A stretch of DNA of 64,000 nucleotides, taken from Ulva prolifera. Lineage: Eukaryota; Chlorophyta; Ulvophyceae; Ulvales; Ulvaceae. Each line of letters begins with the position of its first letter. Within the stretch, counting starts at the first letter, position 1. The position numbers and the translations under genes are program-made. Shown piece by piece: positions 1 through 21,451 of the stretch. The stretch spans positions 1,185,713 to 1,249,712 of the forward strand of contig CM041201.1 in the NCBI GenBank assembly GCA_023078555.1, given 5' to 3'. The notes under the pieces are model-generated. The model worked only from the letters and a program-made list of their open reading frames with translations. It was not told the DNA's origin and did no database searches.

Positions 1-336
1 GGTGCCTCACCAACCATTCTGTATGCGAGCAATGCATGTGCCCCTTCCAGGGCAGCGCCCGTGTGCCCAGTCAGCACCTTCGTGGAATGGTCGGTGCCTC
101 ACCAACCATTCTGTATGCGCCCAATGCATGTGCCCCTTCCAGTCCGCTCTGGGGCAGCGCCCGTGTCCCTAGTCAGCACCTTCGTGGAATGGTCGGTGCC
201 TCACCGACCATTCTGTATGCGAGCAATGCATGTGCCCCTTCCAGTCCGCTCTGGGGCAGCGCCCGTGTGCCCAGTCAGCACCTTCGTGGAATGGTCGGTG
301 CCTCACCAACCATTCTGTATGCGAGCAATGCATGAG
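1..336. repeat. Left hairpin-repeat array (about 3.5 units of about 102 bp)
   Basis: Each unit holds a near-perfect hairpin, GAATGGTCGGTG / CACC(A/G)ACCATTC around a 3-nt centre, at about 86, 187 and 289, with a partial one at position 1. The hairpins are joined by a linker reading AATGCATGTGCC, then a 35-bp stretch, then CCCAGTCAGCACC. Read on the opposite strand this is the same unit as the array at 8640-8910, but with an extra insert of about 35 bp and shifted hairpin centre. ORFs that run through it are by-products of the repeat. The array is cut by the window edge. Confidence 0.9.
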
Positions 337-615
337 CCCGGCTGCTGAAGTGTCGACAGGAAGCCCACGAGCACCGAGTATCGACTTTGCTGAACTCTGG
401 AGTGACCGTGGTACCTTCCAAGTTTCCCAGAGCGCTGTGAGTCGCTTCAGACGAGGCAAGGTTGTTGTCGCGTGACCGCAGTCTCATCACGGCATTGACA
501 TAGACTCAGAGTTGTGTATCTATCGCTGGTATCGTCCTGGCGTCTACTGCGGCCAGCTGATTGTGTGCTGCGTCCCGAAAGTTTTTTCAGATAATTTCGA
601 AAAGTGTTGTAGAAG

Positions 616-1399
616 ATGTCTGTCGTGGGTGGTGAGGAAGCTGTAGCCTGTTGCCCTGGCGATGCCCAGCCTGACACAAGCGTTGCTGCGTTCACACCAC
701 CCGCCTGTCTGCGGCCGGCGCTGTCTCCCGTGATTGGCACGCTGATATCTCGGTCAGGCCATTTTACGGACTTGGGGCGCGTCGGCCGTAAAGGACAGCC
801 CGGCTCTGACAGCGCTTGCGACGCTTGGTTGAATGCCGGGCTACAGGCGGTGGGCCGTGTCTCGCAAACAGTAGAACAGGGCGTAGCATACGTGCAATAT
901 TCTGTAGTGCTCGCTTGTCTGCAACTCGGGGCGTGGATGCGCGAGCAGGAGGAGTTGTTGGTGCCAGCATGGGAGGGAATCTCAGCACCTCCACCTGGAT
1001 GTGACGCCCCTTGTGTGTTGGCGAAGTTGTACGGTCAGAAAAAGGTGTGCCCACCCCAGACCCAGGAGGTCCGTTCTGTTTGGCCCCGACATTACACACG
1101 GGAAATGCACTGTCGGCGCCCATGCCCATCCGCCACACCCCCGCCCTTGTCACACCCACCCTTGTTGGTGAATTCGCCATTCCGAGTCCCCCCGGATCAT
1201 GTAGGTGCCTGTAACTGGGAATGTTCGCCAGCATGCCCCACCAGCGCCCGCTCGGGCGACTACCGAATCGGGTCACGCTGGGGCTGCTGGCTCCGAGACT
1301 GTGCAACAGAGCGACAGGGCGGCGCGCGGGCTCCCGCAGTTGAAGAGCTCCAAGAAGCGGAAACAGCCCGATGCCCCCCCGAAGGAACACGGCAGTATG

Positions 1400-1435
<36 letters not shown>

Positions 1436-4400
1436 TACGACACTTGTGTACTGTCGACAGTGCCTCCCTGTCGCCGTGTTTCCGACAGTTGCACGTGGTG
1501 TATCACGTTGTGTGAGCGGGGTGTGTTTTGTAGAGTACTACGTCGCCACTCCTCGGGCCATGTTGTGGGCCTGGTGCTTTTTCTTCAGTGGCCTCCCCCC
1601 AGACGCTCAGTGCATGGACGTGCCCAGCACCAAGCGTTCAGAGGCCGAGGAGGGGACGGGCGGTAAAAAGGGCAAAGCCAAACTCAAGGTGCCCGAGCCC
1701 ACCTGCAACGTGCCGGTGGGTTGTAACCCCCTGTGCTCGTTGTTTTTGTACGAGAAGACGAGGGCGGCACTTCTCTGCTCTGAAAGCGGGAGGTCTCCAA
1801 GCGATGAATTGGCAGTGCGGGTCTATCAGGAGACAGCTTGCCGATCCGTCCTGTCAGGGCACAAGGGTGAGGTGTCCAAAGCGGTGACAAACTTGGCCGC
1901 CGGTGGGGGTCTGCTTACCGACATCCACATATTCTACCCTCATCTCATAGACGTACATGTGCGTTCCTCCTCTCTGGGCACCCTCTACAAACTTGCCTGG
2001 CGCATGTGACGGTGACCAGTAGCCTATCGCTGTTGTCCCCATTCCGGCCTTGCGTGTGTCCTTTTCGCCCAATCGGGGAATCAGGTCAGGGGTGCAGCGA
2101 TTTAGCAAACAGACCGTCTGCAGGACATTGACATCATCGGGGAGTTTGTTGCGGCCGTCTATAATCTGGCCCCTTTTGTTGTGGAGTACGCAGCGGCACA
2201 CCCTCTGCTGAATCCGAGGCTGGTGTGGCTCCTTCAAATACGAATCTCCCTGTAGCCACGACTACGGCGTGTGTTAGCTGCACATGTAGTCACTCAATCT
2301 AGGAGTTGTATACTCAACTAGCATGCAGGAGTCTGATCAATCGAGGCTTTTTGCTGAATGCTTCGCAGATGTCACGACGTTCCACCAAGCCATGCTTAGT
2401 GCCTGCGTCGCGTACATGCCAGTACGTGGGTCCTCCTGCGGGTCGGGGCTGCAGCTTTGCTTCGCCGCCTACCAGGCTATGGTGTTTGGGTGGGCGCACG
2501 CAGACCCCGATGTCAAGCAGCGGGTCCCGGGGTGGGAATATGAACCCTATCGCGAGGCCGGGCCCTGCTTTTTGGATCCTCTCATGGCGGCCATACTGGT
2601 CACCGCTGTGAACACTTCCTGTGCGTCCCTAGACTGCCTCTGCCTGTTCCGAGGTGTTGCTGGTTCGGCTCCCTGGTTTGGTAGTGTACGCGATGCCTTT
2701 CCCCCGGTGGGCCTCTAAACGGTACCCCGCTTGCAGGGCTGTCACCCACCGGCGTCGGGAGCCCGGTGCACCGTTTCACCTCCCTCCTCATTGACGTCTG
2801 CCCGGGCGATACCATCTGGCATTGGGCATTGAGGGCATGGCGGTTCCTGTGCACCACCAGTGTCCCTGAGATTGAAGGTGCCGCAGATCAAGGGGGCGCA
2901 AAGAAGAAGAGTAAGTTGCTTGCCCTTGTCCCAGCGTCGTTCCAGGACATTGAGGACTGGGGGTACGACGCGGCGCAAATCCTGGCTACAAGGGCTATCG
3001 TCATGGGGATGCAGGTTCCAGAATGCGCCAGGTGTGTCATGCCGCTCATGTGTGTTTTCCTGGATGCCCTGCAGTGTCATAACAGCGTTCAACAGCCCGC
3101 GTGAGACACAGCTAGGGGGATGGTTTCAAACACACTCGCTGTTTGTACAGCGGCGAGCTTGGGCACCTCCCACATTGTGTACGCCAGCAGCTACCCCCCG
3201 ATGCCCTGGGTGCACCGCTGGTGTCCACTGCGGAGGGGGGTGGGAATAGTTCCACCTGCACCACCGGCGGTGGAAAGGGATCTGGTAGCGACGTGGACAA
3301 GGGTGATGGGGACCTCGCCGGGCGCAGGGCGCAGCCCAAGCCACGGACTGGCGCGAGTGCGTCTGTCTGGGGCCTGCCAAAGGCCGCGGGTGGGGGGAGT
3401 GGTGGCAGTGGCCCCGCCGCTGCAGCCGCCGGCACTGACAACGCCGCAGCTGCGCTGTCGCAGCCGGCTCAGCAGGCAGCTGCTGCCGGGGGGGGCCTGC
3501 CGAAGCCCCTGGGTGGGGGGGGTGGTGGCAGTGGCCCTGCCGCTGCAGCCGCCGGCACTGGCAACGCCGCAGCTGCGCTGTCGCAGCCGGCTCAGCAGGC
3601 AGCTGCTGCCGGGGGGGGGCCTGCCGAAGGCCGCGGGTGGGGGGGGGTGGTGGCAGTGGCCCTGCCGCTGCAGCCGCCGGCACTGACAACGCCGCAGCTG
3701 CGCTGTCGCAGCCGGCTCAGCAGGCAGCTGCTGCCGGGGGGGGCCTGCCGAAGCCCCTGGGTGGGGGGGGGTGGTGGCAGTGGCCCTGCCGCTGCAGCCG
3801 CTGGCACTGGCAACGCCGCAGCTGCGCTGTCGCAGCCGGCTCAGCAGGCAGCTGCTGCCGGGGGGGGCCTGCCGAAGCCCCTGGGTGGGGGGAGTGGTGG
3901 CAGTGGCCCCGCCGCTGCAGCCGCCGGCACTGACAACGCCGCAGCTGCGCTGTCGCAGCCGGCTCAGCAGGCAGCTGCTGCCGGGGGGGGCCTGCCGAAG
4001 CCCCTGGGTGGGGGGAGTGGTGGCAGTGGCCCCGCCGCTGCAGCCGCCGGCACTGACAACGCCGCAGCTGCGCTGTCGCAGCCGGCTCAGCAGGCAGCTG
4101 CTGCCGGGGGGGGCCTGCCGAAGCCCCTGGGTGGGGGGAGTGGTGGCAGTGGCCCCGCCGCTGCAGCCGCCGGCACTGACAATGCCGCAGCTGCGCTGTC
4201 GCAGCCGGCTCAGCAGGCAGCTGCTGCCGGGGGGGGCCTGCCGAAGGCCGCGGGTGGGGGGGGGGGGGGGGGTGCCGCAGATAGGCCAGGATCTGGCAGC
4301 AGCTCGGGGCCCAGGGATGATTGGGGCTGCGCGTCAGGGCCACTAACGGCCCTGAACGCATCATGGCCCGACGGAGGTACCCTTCTGGGTACTCTGGCCC

Positions 4401-4452
4401 GCGTGTCAGGCGTTGCCCCCCCCTCTTCGGATCCATCCTCTGGGGTCTTGCA

Positions 4453-4486
<34 letters not shown>

Positions 4487-5105
4487 CGGAGGGGGGGGCA
4501 CCCCGAGCGTCGTGAGGTCCACCGCCTCACAGCCCCCAACGGTCGGGCCTCAGTATGACCCCGTCGACCCCACGTCGGGACCAGACCGCCCTATGTGGGA
4601 CCCAGCGACCTCGCTGGTGCCAGCCGGTCCTGGGACTCTTGTAGTATCCGTTAACAAGCAGGACCGTGGCCGCAAGACCGTCATAACCATAAATGACGAT
4701 CCGCCTTCGTCCGGTCCATCCACCTGCGACAGGGAGACGAAGCTGCAGTGTGCCGCTGCCATGTGGGGGACAATGACGCGCTGCAACCCGCGTCTACAGT
4801 CACCCGGGGATGACCAGAGGATCATGCTCATGGTGGTCCTTTCTGGCCATGGGCTGATTCCAGACGCCACCACCATGAACGAGGTCCTCTTGACGAGTTA
4901 GGAGGTGTGTCGCTGGTTGTATGAGTCCCCTGTCCACCTACGTCGTCCCTGTCCGGTCCACCGTATCTACGATCCCGAAGTGTGACCTCGTGATGTGGCC
5001 TAACTGGCGCCGTGTTTGCAGTCTCCCCAAGACCCCATGAGTGAACTGCGAGAGGCGCTGGGTAAACTGGAGGCGGATGACGGTGACATTGCCGGCGGGG
5101 AGTAG
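616..5105 (+). CDS. Unknown glycine/alanine-rich protein gene of the putative large transposon (about 6 exons)
   Basis: I do not recognise the family. Exons that join in frame: 616-1044 (ATG at 616, donor after AAAAAG), 1536 to between about 1864 and 2000 (donor unresolved), 2329-2653, 2737-3073, 3151 to about 4890, and 5022-5105 (TAG). The 2653/2737 and 3073/3151 junctions both restore frame with consensus GT..AG. The middle exons are Cys/Trp-containing and look globular. The large exon encodes seven copies of an Ala/Gly/Gln-rich repeat of about 41 residues (SGGSGPAAAAAG..LSQPAQQAAAAGGG). A 34-G tract at 4453-4486 then forces a frame change before a unique tail (REDRG-like, acidic end DDGDIAGGE). 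Intron 1 carries a 32-C tract. Convergent with the Ulp1 gene. TGTAA lies about 90 bp after the stop. It may be an accessory transposition protein, by context only. Confidence 0.55.
1402..1433 (+). repeat. Poly-C homopolymer, 32 nt, in intron 1
   Basis: An uninterrupted run of C between exons 1 and 2 of the gene at 616-5105. Its length is likely uncertain because of sequencing slippage. Confidence 0.95.
3367..4257 (+). repeat. Coding minisatellite, about 7 units of 122-123 bp
   Basis: Tandem units begin GCCTGCCGAAGCCCCTGGG and end at CAGCTGCTGCCGGGGGGG. They are nearly identical, and differ mainly in G-run length and in a CCCCTGG/GCCGCGG variant. They encode an Ala-rich repeat in the gene at 616-5105. 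G-run differences keep the frame open throughout, which suggests the array is translated. Confidence 0.95.
4453..4486 (+). repeat. Poly-G homopolymer, 34 nt, inside coding sequence
   Basis: The reading frame used upstream (Gly/Ala minisatellite) differs from the one used downstream (unique tail to about 4890). The simplest explanation is a wrong or variable G count; a real frameshift or an intron boundary is also possible. Confidence 0.9.
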
Positions 5106-5621
5106 GCTGCCTGTAGATTTGTAGGGAATTTGAAGGGGTTCATTGCAGTGGCGTGTGTGTGTTAGCGTGGGGGTGCGATGTGCCACAACACGGATCTGTA
5201 ACCTGCAGTCCGTGTATACCTATGCAATTACTGGTGCGTATTGTCTCGAGCTGATACTTATGTTCGTGATGCCATTTCGCTGCAGCTGCACTGTACCTCG
5301 TTATCTCGAGTACTGCAGCGCTGCGGGCTGCTGCCAGGGGGGCACAGTTGACACTGTTCTGAACACAATAGGTACATAAGGCAAGACGCCGTAGTTAACC
5401 TACGGATTTCGACTCAGTATCCCAATCGTTATCGCGTGTAATCATAACTATCCATCCTCAATGGCTTCAGTTCGCGTGCAACACATGTCTGCTGTTAGTA
5501 TTACAATCATCAAACGACTCAACTTTGTCAGTCGTTTCTGCTAAAATAACATCCGCCTGGACAGCATCAGTCATCTACTGAGCAGCGCAGCTGCTGTACT
5601 CAACATGCGCATATTCTGTAT
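5106..5621. other. Convergent intergenic region
   Basis: Lies between the 3' ends of the glycine-rich gene (+) and the Ulp1 gene (-). It has TGTAA near 5197 on the plus strand and TTACA near 5500 (TGTAA on minus), each about 90-120 bp past the respective stop and consistent with facing poly(A) signals. No supportable ORF. Confidence 0.5.
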
Positions 5622-8408
5622 TTATCGCCTAAGGCTTGGCAATGACATTTGGAATAGGGATTGATACTCGGCGTTCAGGGCCATCGCCGGCTTCTGAACA
5701 CTGGGGACAATTTCAGTCCACAATGTCGTCCTGAACCAGTGCCTGCAGACAGATGCTCCGGCGTCAGAAGACATGCCAACTATCGATGGTGCCTGGACAT
5801 GGACACGCGCAACGTACATGCATTGCACTGTGGGAGGCAATTGGTGGCTGGAGCGGTACCGTAGTTCCTCTTCCGTGAGGTCCGGGCAGATAGGCTCCTT
5901 CAGGTTCACATCCCACCTGGCATCAATTAAGATGCGTCGGGCCTCCTCTGAGCCTAGGCGACCAACGAAATCCCCTGCACGCCCCTTATTCTCCCATTCT
6001 TGTAGCAGTGTACGTGCCATGAGGACACGGTATATCACTACATGCTCCGCCTTCAACAGCTTCAGCCGGCTGACAGCCCCCCGTTCCACAGCGGACCCGT
6101 CGCTGGGGGACAATACCACCATGTTCTGGCGACCCTGGTCGCACTGTTTAATGGCGTCACCCACAGCCTCTGCCATCAGGCAGGTGTGGACCCCGCAGTC
6201 AAAGGTATTCCGCTGTTCAGGAACACCTTTCACCTGCACACCGCGCCTGTGTTCAGAGGCCCCACTTGTGGCTGGCAGGACTAGTCCGCCACACTGTGAT
6301 GCGGTGTAACTGACGGCGACAGTGAGGTGACACACAGATGAGACATACCACGCGTAACTTGAGGAGGTACTTCGGCTTCGGCGATGGCAGGGCACCTTGT
6401 TTGGCTCCGCGCTTCGGCTGGTACTTCTGTCGACCAGGTGTCGATAACCCCTCTGGCAGCTCAGTTAGGGGGGGTACCCCCTTAAGGCCCTGACACAGCG
6501 CCAGGCTCATCACGTCTATGAGGGCAATTGGTGCTGACGCCGACGCGTCGGCAAGTGAGTCGAACCAGCTCATTACGGGGCTCTTCCCAAGCAGCAGAAG
6601 CCCTGCATGTAGGGGTGGTTAGAGTGTCCACAGCGGCACTGTGTCATACGGCACAAACGGGGGAAGGTGGGGAAATCGGGGGGTTTTGGGGGGGGGTGTT
6701 CACATGCACAGTCACAAGTGCATACGATGGTATTTGGAATCGCACTTGGAGAGAACACCGCTGCAAGTGCCCAGTGCTTCCCCGTTGGCACCGGCATGAG
6801 GAGACACCTTGAGTTCAGTGCGTCCGCCCTCTGCAGCCACTTGGCGAGGTGCATCAGCGTTCTACGGGCCTCGGGGTCGCTGCTAGGGTCACGGGTGACC
6901 AGTCCTGCGATGTGGTCTGACGGGACCGCAATGACCCCCGGCCCGGCTAGGACAGCCGCCTTCACTACCGCATACTGCACCGGGAGAGAGCTGAACCACT
7001 CTGTCACCCAGAACTCCCGGAAGTGGTCGACAGCCACTTCGACTGTAACTTTCGTGGCACCGAAATCTGCCAGGTGCACTTCAACACTGGGCACTTCAGC
7101 GCTGCCTGACGGACCCTCAACATCCACCACGTCGACCTTCAAGCCGCGGAGGAGGTTCCCCGTGGGGGCCTCGTGCGACATTTCCGCGGCCAGCCGCTTC
7201 AGCGGCCGGGCATCCGACCTCTCCGGAGCCCGGTTCATTGACTGTCTCCCTCCCCCGCCCTCCGGTGGCAGCAAGCTCGCTGGGGACAAGAACCCCTTCC
7301 CCACGGCGGGTGGGTGAACTGCGCCATCCCCACCGTCTGGGGTGTCCACCTCCATCGGCCCAGCGGCACCGGCTAATTGGCGCGGGGAGGCCGGTGTGGG
7401 CCCAGGAGGGTCCTGGGCGGCTGCAGCCAGTACTGCGCCGCGGCTGAACCTCCTGGGCTGGGCAGGGAGCATCATTGCACGCCCAGAAGCAGCAGCCCCC
7501 TTTGCCTTGGGGACCGCGCACTCCTGTCGATCCGGCAGAGCCGCTGGCGGTGTTGCCGCCACTGCACGTTCCGCTGCGTCATCGTCCCGGGGGCTGTCGG
7601 GGGCTGGTGCCAGGCGGGACGCCACCGTGGTCCCCACAGCGCTCTGGCCGCAGGATTCTGCCCTCTCGGGAGGGCCAGGCTTGGGGGCCTGCGGTGACCC
7701 AGATGGCATGACACCGCCATGCGGGGCCGACGGCTGTGCACCCTGGAGTGCGAGCTGCGGCGGCATTACTGGCGCCGTTAAGCGGGCCTCGAGGACCGCC
7801 GGTCTGGGCCACATCGGAGTGGCTGGTGGGGCGCTGGCCTGGAGCCTATCCCACCATGCTGCAATCGGCCGGCCACCTATGGTCATCCGGAGGCGAAGCA
7901 GAAGCCCTGCCATGGTCTCGTCGGGGCCTTGGGTCGTGGCGACGGACCTGTACACCATGATGGCATGCAGCCCGCACGGTGCTTCTGACTGGACGGCCCG
8001 CTGAAACGCGGCTTCTCGCAGCGCGACCCATAGCAGCTTTAAATGGTGCGTAGCAGCTCGGTATGGAGTACTTGCGCCCGCTACTTCGCGGGTTAGTACC
8101 CTTCCCATGGACGAGAAGCCTGCCATCATCCTGGACTCCGCCTTTTTATCGCCGGCAAGGATGGTATCTATCATCGCGACATCGTAAGCTGTCAATACCC
8201 AGCCGGATTCCATCATGTCCACCGGAAAGCCGTGTGGCCTGTCCATGACCAGCGACGGGATGCGGTGGCCAGGAGCCCAGTTTCCCTGTGACGCTACCTC
8301 CACGAACCTATAAAAAGTAGGCTCATATTGAGCTCTACTATCTAATTCAGTGAGGTATGATTTCAGCGTTTGCACGGTGATCGTGGCAATGTTCAACGTT
8401 GAAGACAT
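5622..8408 (-). CDS. Ulp1-type SUMO/ubiquitin-like cysteine protease, transposon-associated
   Basis: Three exons join in frame: 8408-6726, 6582-6349 and 6233-5622, giving 842 codons plus stop. Introns are 143 and 115 nt with GT..AG ends. The C48 peptidase signature is complete across the exons: His545 in GKHWALA (end of exon 1), Asp569 in SWFDSL (exon 2), Gln646 and Cys652 in PEQRNTFDCG (exon 3). Spacing matches Ulp1 proteases, so the enzyme could be active. Residues 1 to about 250 look globular; about 250-430 are Pro/Ala-rich linker; the protease domain is C-terminal. I chose ATG 8408 because the upstream open frame only reads through the hairpin array at 8640-8910. Ulp1-like domains are well-known passengers of large Mutator-, CACTA- and KDZ-type elements. 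Its substrate here is unknown. Confidence 0.85.
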
Positions 8409-8639
8409 CGGAATGAATCGCGGGCCACGGGCTCGAACGACAATGGGAGCTAATACTACACAAGCTGGAGCGAGACGCGTGGTGTACTGTAAAGGAGGTA
8501 CATGGATACAGCGCGTGTGAGAAGCGCGTGTCCTTGAGAAGACAGGCTGGCCTTGGCCAACTCCACAGGACGTCACAGCATCGACGCTGTGCACGCGGGC
8601 ATCCTGTAGACACTGGTGTAGTGCTGGCCACATGCATTG

Positions 8640-8910
8640 CTCGCAGGCGGAATGGTTGGTGGGCCACCAACCATTCCACGGTGGCGCTGACTGGGCACAT
8701 GCATTGCCCGCATGCGGAATGGTTGGTGGGCCACCGACCATTCCACGGTGGCGCTGACTGGGCACATGCATTGCCCGCATGCGGAATGGTGGGTGGGCCA
8801 CCGACCATTCCACGGTGGCGCTGACTGGGCACATGCATTGCCCGCATGCGGAATGGTTGGTGGGCCACCGACCATTCCACGGTGGCGCTGACTGGGCACA
8901 TGCATTCCGC
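8640..8910. repeat. Central hairpin-repeat array (4 units of 66-67 bp plus a partial)
   Basis: Hairpins with arms GAATGGTTGGTGG / CCACC(A/G)ACCATTC around one central G occur at about 8650, 8717, 8783 and 8850. They are separated by a linker reading CACGGTGGCGCTGACTGGGC then ACATGCATTGCCCGCATGCG. The array is in inverted orientation to the one at 1-336. It lies between the Ulp1 start codon and the transposase stop codon, so it could be part of the Ulp1 promoter or 5' leader. Confidence 0.95.
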
Positions 8911-8940
8911 ATGGTGGCCGCCATATGGGGGATGACCTAC

Positions 8941-11900
8941 TTACACAGTACGCCCGGAGGCCTTATTCGCTGTCTGCCAGTACTGAACACCTCCTGCCGT
9001 CCGTTTCACCGGAACCAGCTGCCCGGCCATAGCATCAATATTCACTACATACCGGCCAGTGTAAGCCGAGGAACGGTGATGCACGCCATCAACCCTGTAA
9101 AACTCGGGAGCGCGGTTCAGCTCCTCATCCGCCTCCCTGCATCCGGGTGTATAGGGTGTACTACACTCGTACACGTCTGTCACACCGAGGTACAGTACGC
9201 TGGCCTCTACAGTGCAGGTTCTACAGATATGCGACCCGTCTGCCGTGCTGAGCCTGGCCCGGACTATGTATTGCAAGTCGCCGACATAGTACCGATCCTG
9301 GCCCCTATTCGTACCCTCTTCTACTACATGGTACTTCAACAGGCACCATCGATTGTCTTTCTTACCCTGACCAGTGTGCTGCGCACAGGTCAGGACATCC
9401 CCTACCAAAGCCCGCCCTCGCAGGAATTTTCGCAGGTGCACCTCACAGAGCTGCCGCTCAGCAACAACCTCCCCAGCAATCGGCAGCCCAAGCGCCCGCA
9501 TGATGGCCTCTCTCCTGCCGTAGCCCGCACCCAGGACCCGCTGGGTCGGCCACCCTGCCTCCTGCAGGGCGTCCTGGTGGTAGAGCAGGTAAGGCAGCCC
9601 GGACAACTCACCGACCCCAGTGTACCCCAGCGGCATCACTTCTTTCTTCTCTTCGGCGTCGAGGTCCTTACCCGCCCCAAACACCCTGTCGTCATCACCG
9701 TCATCAGAGTCGGTGTCGCCCATGTGCACAGCGGCCCGGACCTTGCGCCGTTTTGACCGACGGCGTTTCTCTGAGGCCACGGCCTCTTGCAACGTGCGCA
9801 TGGCCGCCTCTGCTGTATCGCTGCTGTGAAGGAGCCTCATGCATGTGCGCCGCAGCAGCTCATCGTTGACATACACTTTCTCTGGTGATTTGGTGGAACG
9901 ATACTTGATCAGCCGTTTGAGTAGCTGCACCATGCGTTCGATCCAGAACTCTAGACAGAAGAACGCAGGCCCACAGCATCTCACCTGGTCCGGTAGGTGC
10001 CAGACTGCAATATGAAGCTTGAAGGTGCAGATCACCTCCCCCCCAAAGAGATCTTCTGCCATCGCGCCGTACTTCATCAACGCGTCTTGAGCTGCTTTGA
10101 TCCGGGGTGCGGTATGCTGGAGCTCCTCGTACCGCAGGAAATACAGGGTGCCTGCCCGGAGGTGCGTCCACATCTCCTCGAACACCAGCCGAACATCCTC
10201 CTGGTCGGGCTCCCAATGGAGGTCGTGCAGCAAGTACAAGGAGAACGTCTCTGTGAACGCAAGCCAGTCCTCCATGAGCCACCGAGACCGGTGCCTGCAG
10301 CAGTGCAAACTTGAAGCGAGCCACCTGCTGGCCTCCACAAGCTGTCAGGTTCACGACACGTGTGCATGGGACAGCTGCCAGCAGTAACCTGTGACCGCTG
10401 CCGTATTGTGGGGGGCCGCGGAACCGCACTTGGTGATGTCGGTGTACACTTTCTTGAACAGATAAGTGTGCATGATGTGAGACGCGCGGGCAGCAATCTG
10501 GGCCACCACCTCTTTAGGCAGCTGATACAACTGCCTGGGGCCTGCAGGGCGGGCTTTCTTACGCCTCTTCGAACTCGGCAGCCACTGATTCCAGAAGTCC
10601 ATGAGGAGGCCAAGGAGGAACACGTGCGCGACACCGTAGCGGAAGAAGTGGCATGGACTGCAGAAACAACCTCCTTCACGGTGTATGCATGGGTGCAGAT
10701 GACGGTACTGCAGCTGTCCTGTGGTAGGGGTGCGCACTTGAAGTATGAGAGGGTGCTGAAAAGGGATGACCCTTTAACCCCCAGGCGGATGTGCTCCTTC
10801 TTCGCAAGTTTCTGCCGTTCCAGCAGGGTGTCTTTGGCAGTGTAGCGGTCCAACGTGGGGCTGGTGGTCTGCATGCAAGCCTCCTGGTGGGCGTATCGGC
10901 AGAACATCGACCATGCATGCAGGCACATGGGCCGCATGACAGAGGAAAGATTCAAATACAAGGGTACCCGCACCTGATCAGTCAACTGGTCTGCTGTGTG
11001 GCCGCGAGCGCACATCTCCGAAGCAGAGTACTTCAGCCGGCAGTCCTTTGCCAGAGTCGCCGGGTCGATGGTGGTAACCTCGGACCACTTCGTGCGAGGG
11101 GGGGGGGGCGGGCGCGGGGGGGCCCGGGGTCTGGTTCCAGACTGCCGGGCACCATCCTTGGCACCGCCCCCGCGGCAATGTCGGCCTCTTGCGCCGCTGT
11201 GAGGGGCTTTCCTTGATCAGGCCCCGCAGCGTGAACCGGCTGAGGCTGGATGACCGGGCCATGGAACCCAAGCCAGCTGCACGGCGGATGTCTGATAAGG
11301 ACAGTAGGGAGCCCCCAAGCCATGTCGGAGGGGGTGGCGGAGGCGGGCTTGGCCGGGATGCCAGGGGTAAGCAGTGGTGGTCAGAGGCAGCATGGCGACG
11401 GCACGGCAACTGGAGCCAACATACCGTACTGTGTTGGCTGCGAACACCCAGACGCCGTTCTGGGCGCAACGGTAGCACGCCCTCTTGCCGCCGTGCCCGA
11501 TGCTGTTGGTCAACTTCTGCATCCATGGAATGTCGCCCTCCACACAGCAGAGCACAGGCCAGATGCGCAGAACTGTCCCGTCGGGCATCTCAACTTTGAA
11601 AGCCTCGATCCCGTCCTCCCCCTTCCTGGCTGCATCGTAGGGGGTTCATAGTCAAACACAGCCACATCAAGCACTGGCCGGACATGAGTGTGCGTTAGGT
11701 ACACACTCACCAGACTGACACGTACCTGGGTCATGCTTCTTGAAGAACTCGAGTACCTGTGCAAGGATGCTGTCCATGTTCGTGGGTTCAGTTGGGCCCT
11801 CGACCACCCCCAGGGGGATCCAGGCATCATTGCAATGAGACAGATGAGGGGGGAGGTCCAGCAGGCGGATGCCCCTGATTGTGGTCCCGTGTTGCTTGTT

Positions 11901-13321
11901 CACGTACAGTTGGGCGCCGTCACCCCCTGCAAGCGGGCTCAGTGTCCGGGAGAGGCTACTGCAGGCCCCACTGGACCCAGCCGATATCAATGGCCTGGCT
12001 ACTGAGTGATGATGACGCAGGATAGGTCGAACTCAAGGCGAGCGCACCCAAGCTGAAAAGCAGTGCAATCTCGTCCGGGTCAGCCTTGTCGAAAATCCCC
12101 CCGCACTTGGCGTTCAGGGCACGTCCGGCAGGGGACTTCCAGAAACCGGCGGGATCCTGTAGGGCGTGCACTCGATGAGCACGAACCGCGGCAAGGACGC
12201 CGGGTTGCAGAATCAGGTCTTTCAGCGATGCGGCCTCCCCAAAGTAGAAGACACTCCGGCAAGGTGCACCCTTGCCTGCCAGGTCCACCTCGAAACGCTT
12301 CTGGGTGCACCCTGGGGTGTTGCAGATGTCGTCCAAGTGGTGGGTATGATCACACGGCTTTATACCTGGGAAGAGAGTCCAGCACTGTGGGCACACGTGT
12401 CGGGTCACCGAAGAGACATCTGGTACAGCCAGGACAGCCTTGACCAGGTGGAAGGATGGGGGGAACATATTCCCATCTGGTAAGAGTAGATAATGCACAA
12501 AACGACACCACATGTCCACCACAACATCACTCATCCGGAACATGCTTTTCAGGCTGGCGATCCACATTGATACAGTCAACACTGTGAGACGGCAGGTGTC
12601 GGAGACCGGATCCATCCGTCTCTGACGCCACCATGCGGCAGTCCCCTTCACGGCTGCAGCCTCGGCTGAGACCTGTGGACCCTCGCGGCCGTCGAGGGCG
12701 TCGCTCTGCACATAGTCACCAGCCATTGACGCCGAGAGGGAGCAGGGGGTGGGTGCCCAGCATAAGAGCAAGTCGGATAATCTTGCTGCGTCGGGGGACA
12801 CCGAAAGGACAAACCTCGGTAGAGTCTGTGTCCCAGTCATCTCCTGACAGGCTGGAGAGGACACTGCTGGCGTCGTCGTAAAGGCTGTCGGCATCGTCGT
12901 CTCCGTAGTCTTCTTCGGATACGTCGGAGCCCTCAGGTACCTGGCCACATGACACCAATCACGATCACCAGATAGTCAGCACTCGGAGATCAGACGAGGT
13001 GTTCAGGGACAGGCACACCTCGATGAGGACCTCGTCGACTCGACCGAGGTCGACATCGCCCGGAGGCTGGTTGCCCGCCACTTGCTGGCTGCCTGTGTCA
13101 TCGCCAGTGCCATCGTCACGAGTCTGAGCGCGCCCCGCGGGGCAGGCGCGGGGGTGCTTCTGGGCGGTTAGAAGCCTGTCAAACGGTTTACTACATTTAG
13201 TGCACTTGTATAGTAACTTTCGGTCCCCTTCACGAAGAGGAGGATCAAGGCGCAGAATGCCAACGGTTGCAAGGTTGTCGTCTACAGTACGCTTGGCGGT
13301 GCGAGGCCTACGCGGAGCCAT
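8941..13321 (-). CDS. Tnp2/DUF4218-like DDE transposase (CACTA/EnSpm-related), multi-exon
   Basis: Resolved exons: 13321-13019, 12940-12815, about 12730-12048, 11926-11726, 11629 to about 11430. Less certain blocks follow to about 10730, at about 10640-10420, and from about 10330 to the stop at 8941. Order of signals: a C2HC zinc-finger-like motif (CTKCSKPF..HPRAC) in exon 1; an acidic exon; the Tnp2 N-terminal part; GGDGAQLY and a VEGPTEPTNMDS block typical of Tnp2; EGDIPW..GHGGKRACYRC; LGVKGSSLFSTLSYF; a GVAHVFLLGLLMDFWNQWL helix; then a DUF4218-like region (LHIAVWHLPDQVRCCGP..FWIERMVQLLKR), and a DUF4216-like C-terminus. It is probably a functional or recently functional transposase; catalytic acidic residues cannot be assigned with certainty. 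It is head-to-head with the coiled-coil gene, as the paired genes of CACTA elements often are. Confidence 0.8.
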
Positions 13322-13653
13322 TATCTGCACAGTAAACGTCGATAAACTCTGCCTGGATGAATGGAAAGACGTCGCGGCAAGCGAGCGGCGTGGTATGAAC
13401 GAGGTTCAGGCGTAGTGCAAGCGTACTCGGGGACGAGTTGAGTGGCGGGGGATAATCATGCGTGAGGATGTAACGAGGGAGTGTCCCTGTGGCCAATGGC
13501 CGGGCACCAACACGGCACTGTGTTTTCAAAAGGTTGGATACCAGCATCGACGGATAGGCTTCGCCAAGTTCCAAAGAAGTTGAAGTTACTGTAAACGTAT
13601 TGGCTGCTAAGTGTCTGTTTGGTTCCGGTCCTCTCTGTTGTGTACGCGTCGCG
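13322..13653. promoter_or_regulatory. Divergent promoter region between transposase and coiled-coil gene
   Basis: These 332 bp separate two start codons on opposite strands. There is no clear TATA box. Its place suggests a shared bidirectional promoter; this is positional inference only. Confidence 0.45.
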
Positions 13654-16600
13654 ATGTCGGACAGCCTTCAATTTCAGTTCAAGCGAGAGGCCGCGATCGT
13701 CGTCGACAAAGACACTGCGGATGACGACTCTGCGAATGGGATGCTGGACGTGCTAGCGAGGAGTATCTGGCGAAGGGGAGGGGGGTCGGACGGCATGACA
13801 CTGTCGTCGGCCAACGACGAGGACGCCACCTTGGACCTCGACAGCGTGGAGTCCCTGAAGAGATGTATTTCATTCTACTTCGAGAAGGGGAAGATCGCTG
13901 GCGGCATCGAGCCCCCGGTGTTGGTCCAGCCCATCAACCTGCGGAAGAATCGTGGCTCCGCTCCAGGGGCGTCGGCACGCACAGCGGGCTCCACTGCTAC
14001 CGCTGCGACGTGCGACAGCGATCACGTGTGGGAGGTACTACAGTCGGGAGTTCTGATGTGGACTGACAAGCTGTCGGCGATCCTGGGCCAGATGAGGGAC
14101 GAGGACAAGGCGTCTCCGCTGATGCAGGCGCTGCTGAAGGACACCGGCGACCCAAAGTTGCGGATGTTTGAAGGAAGTATGCTGATGCATCAGCACGTTG
14201 GTGCGATCGCAGCGGCAGCAGCGGGGGTACGCTTGTGCTATGCCTGCTACCAACTTGACTCTATCGCCGGCCTGACTTGCTGGGGCGGTTGCCATACGGT
14301 AGTGTGAAGATTACGGTGGATTGGGATGGTTTCGTGTTGTGTTGTATGGCTGAGCGTGTAGTGTGAATGACCCAGTTGTTGTTTTCTTGCTGGAAGTGGT
14401 CGCCACGGACTGTGCTCCGCGGGAGGCAATGGCCACCACAGTACATCGATGACGACCAGACTTGATTGACTTCTGCAGGCGGGCAAAGAGGGGACGGCGT
14501 ACACGGCTGCGAGGAACATAGCAGCAGCATTTCGGGGCCAGCAAGCCATGTTGAGGGACGTGAAGTACAAGTGCGTGTCCTCTTGAGCATGCGACATCAC
14601 GACTGTGCATCACGACTGTGTCAGGATGCACCTGTTCGGCCGTAATCGGTGGTCATCCTGTGTTCGTGTAAGCACACACGCACAGTCGTGATCATCCTGT
14701 TCTTGCAGGGGTTTCCCTCGACGAGCATTTGATCACAACAAGAAGATGCGGCAGAGCGAGCGAGACCGCAAGGACCCGAGAGTGACCGCGGCAGTGAAGG
14801 ACGTGGAGCAAGAACAGGCGCGTTCTTCTTGCTCCCGGATCGTGACGTACATGCAGGACTGCTCGGAATGGTTGGTGGGCCGCCAACCATTCCGAGGCGC
14901 GTTAATAGTTACATGCATGCATGCCCGAATGGCTGGTGGCCCACCGACCATTCGGGGCCCGTGGATAGTGAGATGCCTGAATGCCCGAATGGTCGGTGGG
15001 CCACCAACCATTCCGAGGCGCGTTAATAGTGACGTGCATGCATGCCCGAATGGCTGGTGGCCCACCGACCATTCGGGGCCCGTGGATAGTGAGATGCCTG
15101 AATGCCCGAATGGTTGGTGGGCCACCAACCATTCCGAGGCGCGTTAATAGTGACGTGCATGCATGCCCGAATGGCTGGTGGGCCACCGACCATTCGGGGC
15201 CCGTGGATAGTGAGATGCCTGAATGCCCGAATGGTCGGTGGGCCACCAACCATTCCGAGGCGCGTTAATAGTGACGTGCATGCATGCCCGAATGGCTGGT
15301 GGCCCACCGACCATTCGGGGCCCGTGGATAGTGAGATGCCTGAATGCCCGAATGGTTGGTGGGCCACCAACCATTCCGAGGCGCGTTAATAGTGACGTGC
15401 ATGCATGCCCGAATGGCTGGTGGGCCACCAACCATTCGGGGCCCGTGGATAGTGAGATGCCTGAATGCACGAATGGTCGGTGGGCCACCAACCATTCCGA
15501 GGCGCGTTAATAGTGACGTGCATGCATGCCCGAATGGCTGGTGGCCCACCGACCATTCGGGGCCCGTGGATAGTGAGATGCCTGAATGCCCGAATGGTTG
15601 GTGGGCCAGCAACCATTCCGAGGCGCGTTAATAGTGACGTGCATGCATGCCCGAATGGCTGGTGGCCCACCGACCATTCGGGGCCCGTGGATAGTGAGAT
15701 GCCTGAATGCCCGAATGGCTGGTGGCCCACCAACCATTCCGAGGCGCGTTAATAGTGACGTGCATGCATGCCCGAATGGCTGGTGGGCCACCAACCATTC
15801 GGGGCCCGTGGATAGTGAGATGCAGGCATGCCCGAATGGTTGGTGAGCCACCAACCATTCCGAGACGCGTGAATACTGACGTGCATGCATGCCCGAATGG
15901 TTGGTGGGCCACCAACCATTCCGAGGCGCGTGAATACTGACGTGCATGCCTGCCCGAATGGTTGGTGGCCCACCAACCATTCCGAGGCGCGTGAAAATAG
16001 TGACGTGCACGCATGCCTGAATGGCTGGTGGCCCACCAACCATTCTCGTGCACCGCGCCTGACCCATCTGATGCGGACGTTTTGATACTGCACAACGAAC
16101 ACATTAGGCAACAGCATCCTAGTGCACGTGACAAGCGCACGCCACTGACACATCACCTATACATGCAGCTGTCCAGAATCGGAACCAGGACTGCTTACGG
16201 CGATGGCACGATGAAGTCGGCCGCGCAGTGGGCACGGGAAGACGGAGTGTACGTGGCTGACAACCACTACTTTAGGGATTTCATCCTGGGTGAGATGAAA
16301 AGGGAACAGACAGCGGAATCTCCGTTGCGTCCCACTCACCGGAGGAGCCAACAGGGTGGCCGGGTACGTCTTCGTGGCCATGCTGTACATGACGCAGGGA
16401 TTTTAAAGCGATGTCAGCCGTGGAAGTAGCGTCGATACAGAATCGCGACATGCTTTGCTACGCAGGCCGAGACCAGCAACGGCGGGAGACGCGCCCGCAA
16501 GAGAGGCAGCGACAGGTCACTCGCCGATCTCCCCCCTTCACCTCCGGTTCTCAACCGAACACGGGAGGATGTACCTGACAGCGATGACGTAGAGCTCGAG

Positions 16601-17256
16601 GTCCTACCCCACCTAGTGGCAGCCGGCCCGGAAGTTGCGGACGACGAGATGCCAGTGCCCAAGACTCGGCGAAGCGGCCCAACAGAGATGGACATACAGG
16701 AGGATGAACCGGTACGCCTTGATCTGTACATACCTCCACAAGGTTGACATAAACTGTGCTTTCATAAGCCCAGGCTCATGTACGCGCGTTCATAATGATG
16801 CAGTGCGCTTGCTGATGCATCAAAATCGTATATATGCTGGTCATGTGAGTTTACAAAAGAGTGATGCTGGTCATGTTGTTTCCGTAGGTGCGAGAGATCG
16901 TGTGACAGCATCGTTGTTCTGCAGAAGGCAAAGAAAAAAGATACGCATCCAGCTCTGGAGAAGCGCCAGGCAGAGGCCGAAGAAGAATCTCTCAGGCATG
17001 CCCTCCAGGTTCTCAATGAAAGAATAGCCAAGTCTGAGGACGAATTAGCGAAGCTGGCATCCGGCCCCGCCCGCAACCGGAAGGGTCCGCAGGCAAAGAA
17101 GCTCGATGAATCAATCAAACAGGACAAGGTATGCCACAGTTTATCTGAACAAGTATATCTCAATATGTGTGTACTGTCAGCGGTATGATACAGCGGCGGA
17201 GCGTGCAGGAGGAGGTCCGGGAGCTTATGCAGACCTTGATTGAGATGCTGTCGTGA
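13654..17256 (+). CDS. Unknown coiled-coil protein gene of the putative transposon (7 exons)
   Basis: Exons 13654-14298, 14479-14570, 14709-14841, 16169-16363, 16466-16711, 16925-17128 and 17194-17256 join without a break to 525 residues; every junction keeps frame. The family is not recognised. Exon 1 (residues 1-215) is acidic to mixed, with WEVLQSGVLMWTDKLSAIL. Residues about 240-290 are basic and charged (KKMRQSERDRKDPR). Exon 5 is acidic and Pro-rich. Exon 6 (438-505) is a clear coiled coil (LEKRQAEAEEES..LNERIAKSEDELAKL). The last exon ends RELMQTLIEMLS. Intron 3 (14842-16168) holds the whole right hairpin array. ATG 13654 is preferred over an in-frame TTG at 13600. By position (divergent partner of a Tnp2 transposase) it could be a TnpA-like DNA-binding accessory protein, but no known domain supports that. 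The donor of intron 1 (GTAGTG) is weak. Confidence 0.6.
14866..16048. repeat. Right hairpin-repeat array, about 20 hairpins, intronic
   Basis: Eight composite units of 121 bp (14868-15835) each hold two different hairpins. Type B is GAATGG(T/C)(T/C)GGTGG.. / ..CCAACCATTCCGAGGCGCG. Type A has longer arms starting CCCGAATGGCTGGTGG, ends CCATTCGGGG, and is followed by CCCGTGGATAGTGAGATGCC. Four further type-B-like units of about 61 bp follow (about 15834, 15895, 15955, 16018). The arms match those of the arrays at 1-336 and 8640-8910, but the linkers differ. The many 95- and 115-residue ORFs here are artefacts of the repeat. Confidence 0.97.
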
Positions 17257-17859
17257 GGTGAAGACTCAGATTGAAGATGTCTGTATATTAGTTGCACACC
17301 AACGGGGGCTCAGAAGACACTGTCCCTGAACACAGGCGGTCGTGACCGAGTGTATGAGTGGGGTATATGACACGTTAGACGTGGCATTACCTGTTATAGT
17401 AGTAATGTCGTTCCGTATGGACATGCAGAGGTCACCAGGTGACGAGATCTCACTGTAAGCAATGTCTATGATAGTTTATGATTGCCTATGCAAAGCATGA
17501 CCGCCTGCCTACAAACTCGTGTGAACACATCAACAAAGCTGTCTTGTTTCGGAACCACGGTGTACATGCTGCTTGTATACGCGTACGCGAAACTGCCTAT
17601 CCCGCAAGACCGTATGTCATGTGCGCACCATTCGCGATTCACGTTGAAAACCTGGTGCACCTGTTAAAATAGAGTGAATAAGAGAGAACAAACACCGATA
17701 CCGAGTCGCATCCGTGTCAACGGCAACATGCACGTGGCACACATGTAAAGGAGGCCTCGCTGACCTCACCACGTACGTACTCTGCCTCCGGCACGGTCGA
17801 ACAGAGAGTAACCAAGTAATAACCCCTCATGAACCAGCATGTTCGTCCACGCTTCCGGA
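17257..17859. other. Intergenic, with a degenerate foldback-arm copy at about 17661-17745
   Basis: TGTAA near 17453 could be the poly(A) signal of the upstream coiled-coil gene. From about 17661 (TAGAGTGAATAAGAGAGAAC) to 17745 the sequence is a diverged copy of the 73-bp foldback arm found at 22022-22094. Nothing else is supportable, and no clear terminal inverted repeat marks a right end of the large transposon. Confidence 0.5.
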
Positions 17860-18185
17860 CGGCTTCCGCAAGGCTCCGCTGGAACGTCCCCGGATCCGAA
17901 ATCATTCCGAAATTTTAAGCATTCTTCCTCAAACAGTCCTCTGGATGCATTGCGGAACCTTCGCGCGTTCCGGCACCACTCCGGAAACGTTCCGGCGGAA
18001 CACCCACGTGGAGTGCACTTGGAAACCACCCGGTCGGAACGCTCGCGGAACTTCCTCCCACGCTCCGGACTGCCTTCCGGACGCTCCGCTAACAGTCCTT
18101 TCGCTGTTCCGGGGGCTCCGCCACGCATCCGCCCCTCTTCCGCGAGCCGTCCTCGCACGTTCCCCACCACCACGTCACCATTCTC
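17860..18185. other. TTCCG/CGGAA-dense patch
   Basis: About 13 occurrences of TTCCG or CGGAA fall within roughly 290 bp, several as palindromic TCCGGA or CCGGAA words in both orientations. The patch ends exactly where the truncated Copia element begins. ORFs exist on both strands but look like by-products of base composition. The function is unknown. Confidence 0.5.
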
Positions 18186-18195
18186 CTAGTGATGT

Positions 18196-21100
18196 ATGCA
18201 TGAAAAGGATGAGAAGGGTCAGGTCATCCGATGGGTTGTGGACACCGGCTGTACACAGCATATGCTGAAGGATGCACAGTTTGCAAGCAACGTCCGCGCA
18301 TGTGATGTCGACGTGATGATTGCAAACGGGGAGTCTGTGAAGGCTCGTGGCAAGTGCGATCTGAAGCTGACCACCTGGGTTGGAGACAAATTCTTTAAGA
18401 TGCATCTCAAAGACATCCTGGTGGTGCCTCAAGCCCCGCATAATTTGCTGTCGGGACCAGCGCTGGCGCGGAGCAACAATGATGTTGAGCTCCAAGGCGG
18501 CAGCTGCAAAGGGGTTCTGAAGCGCGCAGGCGGGTATGTGTGGGGTGTCACGACGCCTGATGACAAGGGACTAAGTATCCTGGTTACATATCGGGCAGCA
18601 CCGGAGGGTGCCGATGCCCATATGGGTGTCCCGACGGGTGGCAAGACGATGCAAGAAGCTCTGTGCGCGAGCCGGGATTCGGCTGCGCTGTGGCACAGGA
18701 GGTTGGGGCATTTGAGCTACGCAGCCATCGCAAAGATGGCTCGGGATGGAGCAGTCGCCGGAATGCCGGTGCAGGCAAAGCGGCTGCAGGCCAAGATTGG
18801 CACGGCGTGCAAGATCTGCATGGAAGCCAAGCATGCGGCGGAGCCGCATGGGATATCGGAAACCAGAGCGACGTCACCACTGCAGTTGGTGCACTCTGAT
18901 CTGATGGGGCCGCTGAGACCAGCGAGCGCTGGAGGCAATCAATACATCCTGACGGCTGTGGACGACTACAGCGGGTACGCTCAGGTGAAGCTGATTAGCC
19001 AGAAGAGTGACGCCGGCAAGGCGTTGCAGGAGATCCTACTGATGTGGGAGCGGCAGTTGAATGCGAAGGTGAAGCGAGTCCGGACGGACAGGGGTGGCGA
19101 GTACGCGTCATTCGATCGCTGGTGTGACACCCGAGGCATCCTGCGTGAGCGGTCTGTTGCATATACACCGGAGCAGAACGGCCGGGCTGAACGGTTCAAT
19201 CGAACTGTGACCCAGAAAGCCAGAGCAATGGTGATTGATGCTGCATTTGCCAAGAAATATTGGGGTGATGCATTCACTACGGCTGTGCTGGTGTACAATG
19301 TGTCTGCGCGGATGACACAACCGAAGACACCGCATGAATTGTTCTGGGGGTTGAAGCCAGACATCAGCCACTTGCGGGTTTTCGGCTGTAAAGTATTCTG
19401 CAAGCGAAACCCGTCAGACTGCAAAAAAGCTCACTGCCTGGAGTGACGAGGGACGTTTCCTCGGATATGATGAGGGTACCAAGGGCTGGAAGGTCTTGCT
19501 GGACAATGGCAAGATCGTCATTCGGGCGAATGTGAAGTTCGTCGAAGAAGCAGCAGCGGAGGAGGAGCACGCAGCGGATCATGCAGATCACAACGCTGCT
19601 GCACCTGATCGTGCTGATCAGCATGCTGCTGCATCTGCGAACGAAGGTGCATGCTCGAATGAAGGCATGCAGCCCGATGACAATCACTCTGAGATGGCAG
19701 CTGGCCCTGAGGTCAATGATCATGAAGATGCTGAGATCTCTGAGGATGATGCTCATAATGATCCGGCAGAGCCGGAGGTTGCAGAGGAGGAAGTGCAGTT
19801 GCCTCAGAAGAGGGTGCTGCCTCCGCGAACCAGAGAGCCGTCCAAGAAACTCAGAGATGCGTATGCTCTGCTTGCAAAAGATGGGCTGCCTGATGAGCCG
19901 GAGCTTCATGTGGCTCAGCAGCAACCGGACTGGTCGCTGTGGGAGATCGCTATTGAAGAGGAGATGCAATCTCTGATTCAGATGAAAGCATTTGAAGTGA
20001 TTGACAAGCCGGACGCTGTTGCGAAAGCTTTGAAGTGCAAGTGGGTTCTGAAGAGGAAGAGGACCAAGGAAGGTCACATCGAGAGGTACAAGGCTCGCCT
20101 CGTGGCCAAGGGCTTCACGCAGCAGAAGGGAGTCAACTATGATGAGGTATTTGCTTCGGTAGTCAAGTATTCCACAGTGAGGGCAATGCTGGCTATGGCT
20201 GCAGTGGAGGACCTCGAGATCGAGCAGATAGATGTGAAGACAGCTTTTCTGAATGGGCCTCTGCAAGAAAACATCTACATGGAGATCCCGGAGCTGTATG
20301 ATTTCGGGAAGAACAAGGTGCTGCATCTCAAGCGAGCGTTGTATGGGCTGAAGCAGGCTGCCAGAGCATGGCATCAAGAGCTCAATCGTGTGTTAAAGCG
20401 ATATGGCTTTGAGGTGTCATACGCTGATTCATCTCTCTTTGCGTTTGAGAGGAATGGCAGGCGCTCGTTCCTGCTGATATATGTTGATGATGGCCTCGTG
20501 ATTGGCTGCAAGGCAGATACCAATCACATCATCGACATTCTGGCTGTCGAGTTCGACATCAGAAAGTTGGGGGCAGCATCCTACTTCCTGTCGATGGTGA
20601 TACAGCGTGACAGAGGCGCACGCACAATCACACTGCATCAGAAGAAGTATGCTACTGAGATACTGCAGCGGGGGGGGATGGCCGAGGCTAAGCCCAAGTC
20701 CATACCGCTGGCAGTGAATCTCAAGCTCAGCAGCAAGGGTGATGATCAGATGGAAGATTCGTCTGATTATGCAGCGATCGTGGGCAAGCTAATGTATTTA
20801 GCTACATGCACACGCCCGGATCTGGCGTATTCTGTGGGGCTGCTGGCTCGATTTATGGCCAAGCCTCGGGAGGAGCATTGGCAGTGTGTCAAGTGGCTGC
20901 TCCAGTATCTCAAGAAGACTCTGTCATTAGGACTGAAGTATGGGGGACAGCAGCAGCTTGAGTTTGTGGGATATACTGACTCAGATTTTGCTGCTGATCC
21001 GGACAAGCGGAGGAGCACAGGGGGCTGTGTTTTCCTGTTCGCTGGTGGAGCCATCGAGTGGAACTCGAAGCTGCTTCCTACAGTAGCAACATCCACAATG

Positions 21101-21451
21101 GAGGCTGAATACATGGCAGGTGCTATTGCAGCCAAGACAGCCTTGTGGACAAGGAAGCTGATGGCAACAATCCGAGGAGGAGATGAAAAGATACAGGGCA
21201 CAAAGCTGCACTGTGACAATCAAGCAGCGTTGGCTCTGATGAAGAATCCAGTTCACAACCAGAGGGCCAAGCATATTGATGTGTGTCATCACTTCATCCA
21301 AGAGAGGGTTGCCAGAGGAGAGCTGGTGGTTGACTATGTGCCAACCAAGGAGATGTATGCTGATATGATGACCAAGGCTTTACCAAAGCCGCAGTTAGAA
21401 TATCATAGGACCAAGCTGGGTTTGTTTGATGTTTGCGAAGAAGCTGAATAG
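18196..21451 (+). pseudogene. pol: Copia pol polyprotein (protease-integrase-RT-RNase H), one frameshift
   Basis: Frame 1 covers 18196 to about 19410. It has protease motif DTGCTQHM, a GAG-pre-integrase HHCC-type finger (ALWHRRLGHLSY..CKICMEAKH), and integrase core with all three acidic residues visible (HSDLMGP, RTDRGGEY, TPEQNGRAE). A one-base shift near 19405-19410 (after FGCKVFCKR) moves to the frame that runs to 21451. There the RT shows RYKARLVAKGF, IDVKTAFLNG and the catalytic YVDDG, and RNase H shows YTDSDFA, MEAEYMA and DNQAA. The two frames together make a nearly complete pol. The missing N-terminus and the shift make it non-autonomous, although the shift could be a sequencing error. 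Its coding preservation suggests a young insertion. Confidence 0.9.

Follow-up and report, generated by a model that had tools for sequence, protein, structure and literature searches.

The DNA examined here is a 64,000-nucleotide stretch of the Ulva prolifera genome (henceforth the window; C6:1185713-1249712), which was compared with the 88.9 Mb of the genome analysed; the chlorophyll a/b-binding proteins encoded there are of the green type. Its first part is occupied by a real cut-and-paste DNA transposon of the CACTA/EnSpm type, which carries a gene without recognizable domains (gene 1), a Ulp1 protease gene, a transposase gene and an accessory gene, together with three arrays of 27-nt palindromes. 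These arrays form an additional inner layer beside the ordinary TTCCG/CGGAA subterminal repeats of the element, since this separate repeat set sits nearer to each end. On the evidence of sequence comparisons, we consider it rather probable that we are dealing with a large cut-and-paste CACTA/EnSpm-type element in which the palindromes would be binding sites for an element-encoded protein.

Limits and classification of the element

The element is 19,276 bp in length (C6:1184628-1203903) and spans window positions -1084 to 18191. The initial annotation of this DNA had confined it to positions 1 to 17256 with unrelated sequence thereafter; these limits were wrong, and the sequence that follows its actual right end is Copia-like. 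A DNA search initiated with window positions 16100-19000 recovered many copies that end at, or a few bases from, position 18191, and past this point long matches were obtained only to the window itself and to two Copia-like copies. An 18-bp terminal inverted repeat, CACTAGGAGAATGGTGAC, is found at the reverse-complemented right end and again 1,084 bp to the left of the window start. Terminal inverted repeats starting with CACTA, as in other CACTA/EnSpm elements, are present at both ends. Genome-wide, 198 such ends (104+94) were recovered at no more than one mismatch, as against a single one (1+0) for the reversed-pattern control. Target duplications of 3 bp are identical in eight of nine complete end pairs, with the ninth reading ggc/ggg. 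The last ~350 bp of each end are occupied by TTCCG/CGGAA motifs, i.e. ordinary short subterminal direct and inverted repeats of the CACTA/EnSpm kind, with eight at the left end versus 0.90 expected in 332 bp (for the right end see Table 1).

The ends, the target duplications and these subterminal repeats are the grounds on which the element is filed as CACTA/EnSpm; its transposase gave no match to the Pfam Tnp2 profile. The initial proposal of a single CACTA-type transposon is borne out by its ends, duplications and copies, and both of the signatures it had suggested looking for, CACTA-starting terminal inverted repeats and target duplications of 2-3 bp, were found. The large element is probably autonomous. 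A 6.5-kb copy (C1:1022395-1028905) is a shorter derivative with the same ends, in which blastn detected no match above 150 bits for either the transposase part or the Ulp1 part. Further pairs of CACTAGGAGAATGGTGAC ends spaced by 6-9 kb occur in the genome and are known from their ends alone.

Palindrome arrays in the window copy and its relatives

The 13-nt arm of the palindromes occurs 58 times in the window at up to two mismatches, compared to 2.25 expected in shuffled sequence. Across the genome 635+653 exact arms were recovered versus 4+0 for the reversed pattern, which excludes chance as their source. The arms pair into the 27-nt palindromes, and the three hairpin arrays that had been noticed in the initial annotation do exist and belong to the element. 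However, the 13-nt arm that they were said to share is exactly common only to arrays 2 and 3, whereas array 1 is built of a variant, GAATGGTCGGTG-CCT-CACCAACCATTC, of which the window holds three complete palindromes and one lying across its start. Likewise, their description as perfect hairpins does not hold: among 90 palindromes from five sequence sets, all 13 positions pair in 23, 12 positions in 37 and fewer in the remaining 30. In array-1-type palindromes the position next to the centre is always unpaired, and in array 3 the 5' arm reads GAATGGCTGG in 10 of the 20 palindromes. The variation at arm position 8 and its partner consists nearly entirely of T/C and A/G differences at a CpG, as would be expected if these sites were methylated and decayed by deamination.

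A copy on C7 possesses arrays at the same three places, with 3/3/14 palindromes against 9/4/20 in the window copy. The 6.5-kb derivative on C1 has 16 right palindromes (one of them of 26 nt) and three degenerate left ones, and the array period varies among derivatives (61/71/74 bp). For a broader survey of the right array, 41 clusters drawn from 100 listed of 130 matches were compared with 100 of the 198 ends, a list that reaches into C7. Among the matches listed, 31 of the 41 clusters have a matching right end in the correct orientation 1.24-2.46 kb away, and in 24 of these 31 the opposite end is likewise present at a distance of up to 30 kb. Six of the ten misses have an end 5.6-12.6 kb away, and the clusters at C1:980240, C2:3936465, C7:6265971 and C11:71084 have no near end among the ends listed; for the one on C11 the DNA search shows a right limit 2.2 kb away. 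The arrays in this sample are tied to transposon ends and not scattered, which counts against the possibility, raised in the initial annotation, that they might be widespread with no link to the transposase. A group of elements, mostly of 6-11 kb (e.g. C2:772985-781358 and C7:154787-163594), stands apart in that 1.24-1.32 kb separate its right array from the right end, versus 2.1-2.5 kb in others.

A sister family with diverged palindromes

A second family in the same genome, F2, encodes a transposase ~65% identical to that of the window's family, and exon-level tblastn comparisons revealed that all four genes recur there in unchanged order (gene 1 +, Ulp1 -, transposase -, accessory +). Its ends, CACTAGRAGAATGGCGAC, were found 60+68 times at up to one mismatch (control 0), and its own palindrome, GTGGCCATTCGSCGAATGGCCAC, 331 times (control 0). 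The first 50 listed of these 331, all on C1, form 13 clusters, each of which lies inside an F2 end: those at left-type ends are positioned at 566-569 bp (five clusters), 669 bp and 1,062 bp (one each), and those at right-type ends at 1,937-2,014 bp (six). Only 0.5% of C1 is as close to F2 ends as these clusters. The F2 palindrome is present at both the left and the right, and the right array follows the same accessory exon in both families (exon end 12452 and array start ~12476 in F2; 14820 and 14866, respectively, in the window).

The palindromes of the two families share a GAATGG motif whose polarity differs. In the F2 palindrome this half-site is everted and points outward from the centre; its counterpart in the window's family occupies the outer edges, pointing inward. 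Among 42 F2 palindromes, taken from six loci, the inner GAATGG hardly varies. Furthermore, the terminal repeats of the window's family (GAATGGTGAC) and of F2 (GAATGGCGAC) match the half-sites GAATGGT and GAATGGC, respectively; the base that separates the two half-sites is also the one that distinguishes the two terminal repeats.

In 31 of 32 match rows for the window's family and in 56 of 58 for F2, the accessory gene is found at most 4 kb from the transposase gene and divergent to it, a few rows being two pieces of one copy; the initial worry that these genes might prove unlinked in other copies is thereby answered. In a more distant group, F3, the accessory gene was recovered in none of 29 rows, and no perfect palindrome array was detected in the single F3 copy scanned. 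This copy (C3:9264589-9277450) is 12,862 bp long, with CACTA ends CACTACAAGGATGGT, a TTG duplication and a 344-bp tandem repeat (x4.3).

Genes of the element

The initial annotation had listed two unrecognised multi-exon genes, and both have exons conserved in F2. Neither gene 1 nor the accessory protein gave a match in Pfam. The five exons of gene 1 are matched in a second F2 copy, and its end was also recovered in the first F2 comparison. The joined exons of the Ulp1 gene score 35.5 bits against Peptidase_C48 (E 1.2e-8; cut-off 20.7), and the catalytic His (GKHW), Asp (FDSL) and Cys (QRNTFDCG), identified by eye, reside in three separate exons, in agreement with the full catalytic set first attributed to this protease. 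For the transposase, initially labelled Tnp2/DUF4218, DUF4218 was recovered below threshold (19.3 of 27 bits) and the Pfam Tnp2 profile PF02992 did not match the joined exons, nor anything genome-wide, where the control also matched nowhere. By eye, GDIPW and CYRC (C(2)C) motifs and an N-terminal Cys/His finger can be discerned in the transposase; the DDE triad and H(3-4)H motif named in the accessible portion of PMC12730594 were not established. Six short patterns taken from the transposase frame gave no match in viral contigs.

Differences between the window and C7 copies at first, second and third codon positions number 18, 11 and 29 in accessory exon 1, 6, 6 and 14 in accessory exon 4, and 7, 1 and 15 in the last transposase exon, a third-position excess as expected of coding sequence. 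No such excess is seen in accessory exon 3 (5, 6, 5) or in two of three Ulp1 segments (5, 1, 4; 9, 6, 6). Stop codons in a 339-codon stretch of other copies were considered as a sign of decay and dismissed, as that stretch exceeds the conserved exon (12049-12660) in length.

Table 1. Features of the CACTA-type element and its right flank, in window positions
Feature	Positions	Strand	Remarks
CACTA-type element, part within the window	1..18191	.	left end C6:1184628; right limit common to many copies
Array 1 (left), right part	1..315	.	9 palindromes in whole element; period 92/102 bp; 0.6-1.4 kb from left end
Gene 1, no Pfam match	709..3050	+	exons ~709-1056, 1518-1976, 2118-2213, 2305-2625, 2715-3050; conserved in F2
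Tandem repeat of a 123-bp unit (x7.2), several frames open	3369..4261	.	downstream of gene 1 exons
Ulp1/C48 cysteine protease gene, multi-exon	5634..8399	-	conserved in F2
Array 2 (middle)	8624..8913	.	4 palindromes (8650-8877); 67-bp period; flanked by the 5' side of Ulp1 and the 3' side of the transposase
Transposase gene, multi-exon, DUF4218-like C-terminal exon	8944..13330	-	DUF4218 below cut-off; motifs by eye
Accessory gene, divergent to transposase	13654..17256	+	exons examined 13654-14235, 14704-14823, 16181-16423; later exons from earlier reading
Array 3 (right)	14866..16045	.	20 palindromes; 60/61-bp period; between two accessory-gene coding segments; 2.15-3.3 kb from right end
TTCCG/CGGAA short repeats, both orientations	17842..18173	.	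13 vs 1.86 expected in 332 bp
Right terminal inverted repeat CACTAGGAGAATGGTGAC	18174..18191	-	sequence as read on the - strand
Flanking Copia-like retrotransposon, outside element	18192..21451	+	named by eye

Potential functions of the arrays

The conserved place of the arrays, their conserved sequence at both ends, the base they have in common with the terminal repeat and their absence where the accessory gene was not found lead us to favour binding sites for a protein. The bound protein could be the accessory protein or, through its N-terminal Cys/His finger, the transposase; as candidates the two appear equally open. Such a protein might also find its half-site within the terminal repeat, and its binding would load it at both ends for synapsis and excision. 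Binding between the exons of the accessory gene and upstream of Ulp1 could in addition control the expression of the element itself, and the Ulp1 protein, judged from its domain, might be a SUMO-protease helper. A further proposition, which we advance as doubtful, is that the arrays constitute a second cis tier, different in kind from the usual subterminal repeats and set at near-rigid inner positions, that co-evolves with the terminal repeat and a dedicated accessory protein, such that one protein would serve both to assemble the transposition complex and as a gauge of expression, with specificity having changed between the sister families by everting the two half-sites.

Several observations weigh against protein-binding sites of this kind. 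As ordinary TTCCG/CGGAA repeats already lie nearer to the ends, the palindromes may not be the transposition sites and may serve regulation as much as transposition; of the earlier designation of the hairpins as the cis-sites of the element, it is supported that the element has repeated sites of its own. The likeness of left and right arrays could have come about by gene conversion. At two of the six F2 loci (L073 and L074) the arms have drifted apart, leaving only 1 and 0 palindromes with arms of at least 10, and no middle array was present in the single F2 copy scanned. The half-site matches the terminal repeat over only 7 nt, the joint change between families amounts to one base, and the T/C rule is not strict, being broken by one arm in 10 of the 20 palindromes of array 3. 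The search may have overlooked an accessory gene that has diverged in F3. Predicted structures of the accessory exon and the DUF4218 exon were too poor to be of use (mean predicted local distance difference test scores of 36 and 39). Finally, one argument in favour, the 0.89 identity of palindrome columns versus 0.32 for linkers across four arrays of the window's family (55-80 bp units only; 19, 13, 14 and 17 units), is helped by picking palindromes at up to five mismatches from a consensus.

An account that dispenses with function altogether would regard the arrays as passive minisatellites: slippage, unequal exchange and template switching would have expanded them within an ancestral element, and gene conversion would keep them homogeneous. 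The free variation in copy number and in the period of derivatives, the decay of the arrays at L073 and L074 and the lack of an excess of compensating base changes are all as this account would have it. However, it sits poorly with the near-fixed offsets at both ends in F2 and at the right end in the window's family (among the matches listed), with a palindrome core that is kept as the linker drifts, with the same family-specific palindrome in left and right arrays, and with the retention of right arrays by shorter derivatives, and we hold it to be unlikely. An RNA role, wherein transcribed hairpins would feed a small-RNA pathway, block intron processing or end transcription, could draw on the location of array 3 between two coding segments of the accessory gene and on the self-complementarity of single units on one strand. 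Yet protein binding is to be preferred to RNA hairpins because the pairing does not covary. The most variable pair, 8-20, is TA in 34, CA in 26, TG in 21, CG in 8 and GG in 1 of 90 palindromes, i.e. 42 paired versus ~48 if the positions were independent; its changes resemble CpG decay, and both sides have changed in 8 of 90, below the expectation under independence. Other both-sided changes are few (pair 10-28 in one F2 palindrome at L073:4434 and pair 7-21 in one degenerate palindrome of the window's family), and GAATGG has been kept even though its place in the stem is reversed between the families. A scan of window positions 1-18300 against Rfam returned no match, which also counts against an RNA role, leaving it distinctly improbable; the arrays as folded RNA were rejected on this null result and the lack of excess pairing. 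A still slighter chance attaches to cruciform extrusion, by which the arrays would work through DNA structure, e.g. on replication timing or recombination between copies. The DNA is indeed palindromic and recombination between two copies did occur, but 67 of the 90 palindromes have at least one unpaired position and conservation is of sequence, not of pairing.

The value of this system lies in the material at hand: two sister families, each with dozens of copies in one genome, have diverged in their repeated sites, terminal repeats and accessory proteins. The pair makes it possible to address by site swaps a long-standing question on CACTA elements, namely how a fast-changing helper protein stays matched to its sites.

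Flanks and a probable inversion between two copies

The triplets flanking the window copy, cct/atg, are mismatched. The other half of its Copia-like target, which terminates in CTGCATG, is located directly beside the left end of a copy in the opposite orientation, C6:1007637-1026717, whose other flank starts with CCT. When the flanks of these two copies are paired crosswise, exact CCT and ATG duplications result. The simplest reading is that recombination between these oppositely oriented copies turned round the intervening 158 kb; the two look like its reciprocal products, and the mismatched flanks are explained in this way. A Copia origin of the left flank was also entertained and rejected, as the inversion accounts for it. 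This case demonstrates at the base-pair level that recombination between such elements can yield a large inversion. The identity between the window and C7 copies declines from ~98.6% in the first 4.9 kb through ~95% in the middle to 83-85% in the right quarter, a gradient consistent with exchange among copies.

Comparison with known systems

The maize En/Spm element has a 12-bp motif and produces TNPA and TNPD from one gene. The present element resembles it in combining a transposase with a second gene, the accessory one, for whose product DNA binding is putative; it differs in that this gene is divergent and matches no Pfam family, and the En/Spm motif is smaller. As summarized in the accessible text of PMC2613891, TNPA, the second protein, binds to subterminal sites present in repeated form and can in addition influence transcription.

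Ulp1 domains are carried by the grapevine elements Cactavine-2, -3, -4, -5 and -13 and by rice CACTA elements, where they are described as a transduplicated host domain (PMC2528002, in the portion available). These elements are similar to the present one in joining a CACTA transposase with a Ulp1-type protease, but here Ulp1 forms a separate gene that is conserved in both sister families. Neither 'subterminal' nor 'palindrom' occurs in the main text of that article as available.

No description of the present arrangement of arrays was found in the portions consulted of the open-access literature, a scope that includes neither papers behind subscription nor repeat databases. Palindromic repeats are by themselves no novelty: in the soybean CACTA elements Tgmt*/Tgm1 the subterminal repeats, arranged in direct and inverted pairs, form stem-loops (12 by the right border, 2 by the left one) and are confined to 159 bp and 732 bp at the ends (PMC2613891, accessible text). 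The same source shows further parallels of Tgmt* with our element, namely a size of ~20 kb, CACTA ends, a 3-bp duplication, asymmetric ends and a motif that differs by subfamily. In contrast to Tgmt*, the arrays described here start ~0.57-0.6 kb (left) and 1.2-2.5 kb (right) inside the ends, include an extra array in the middle of the element and a right array between accessory-gene exons, and show a half-site polarity that is reversed between sister families.

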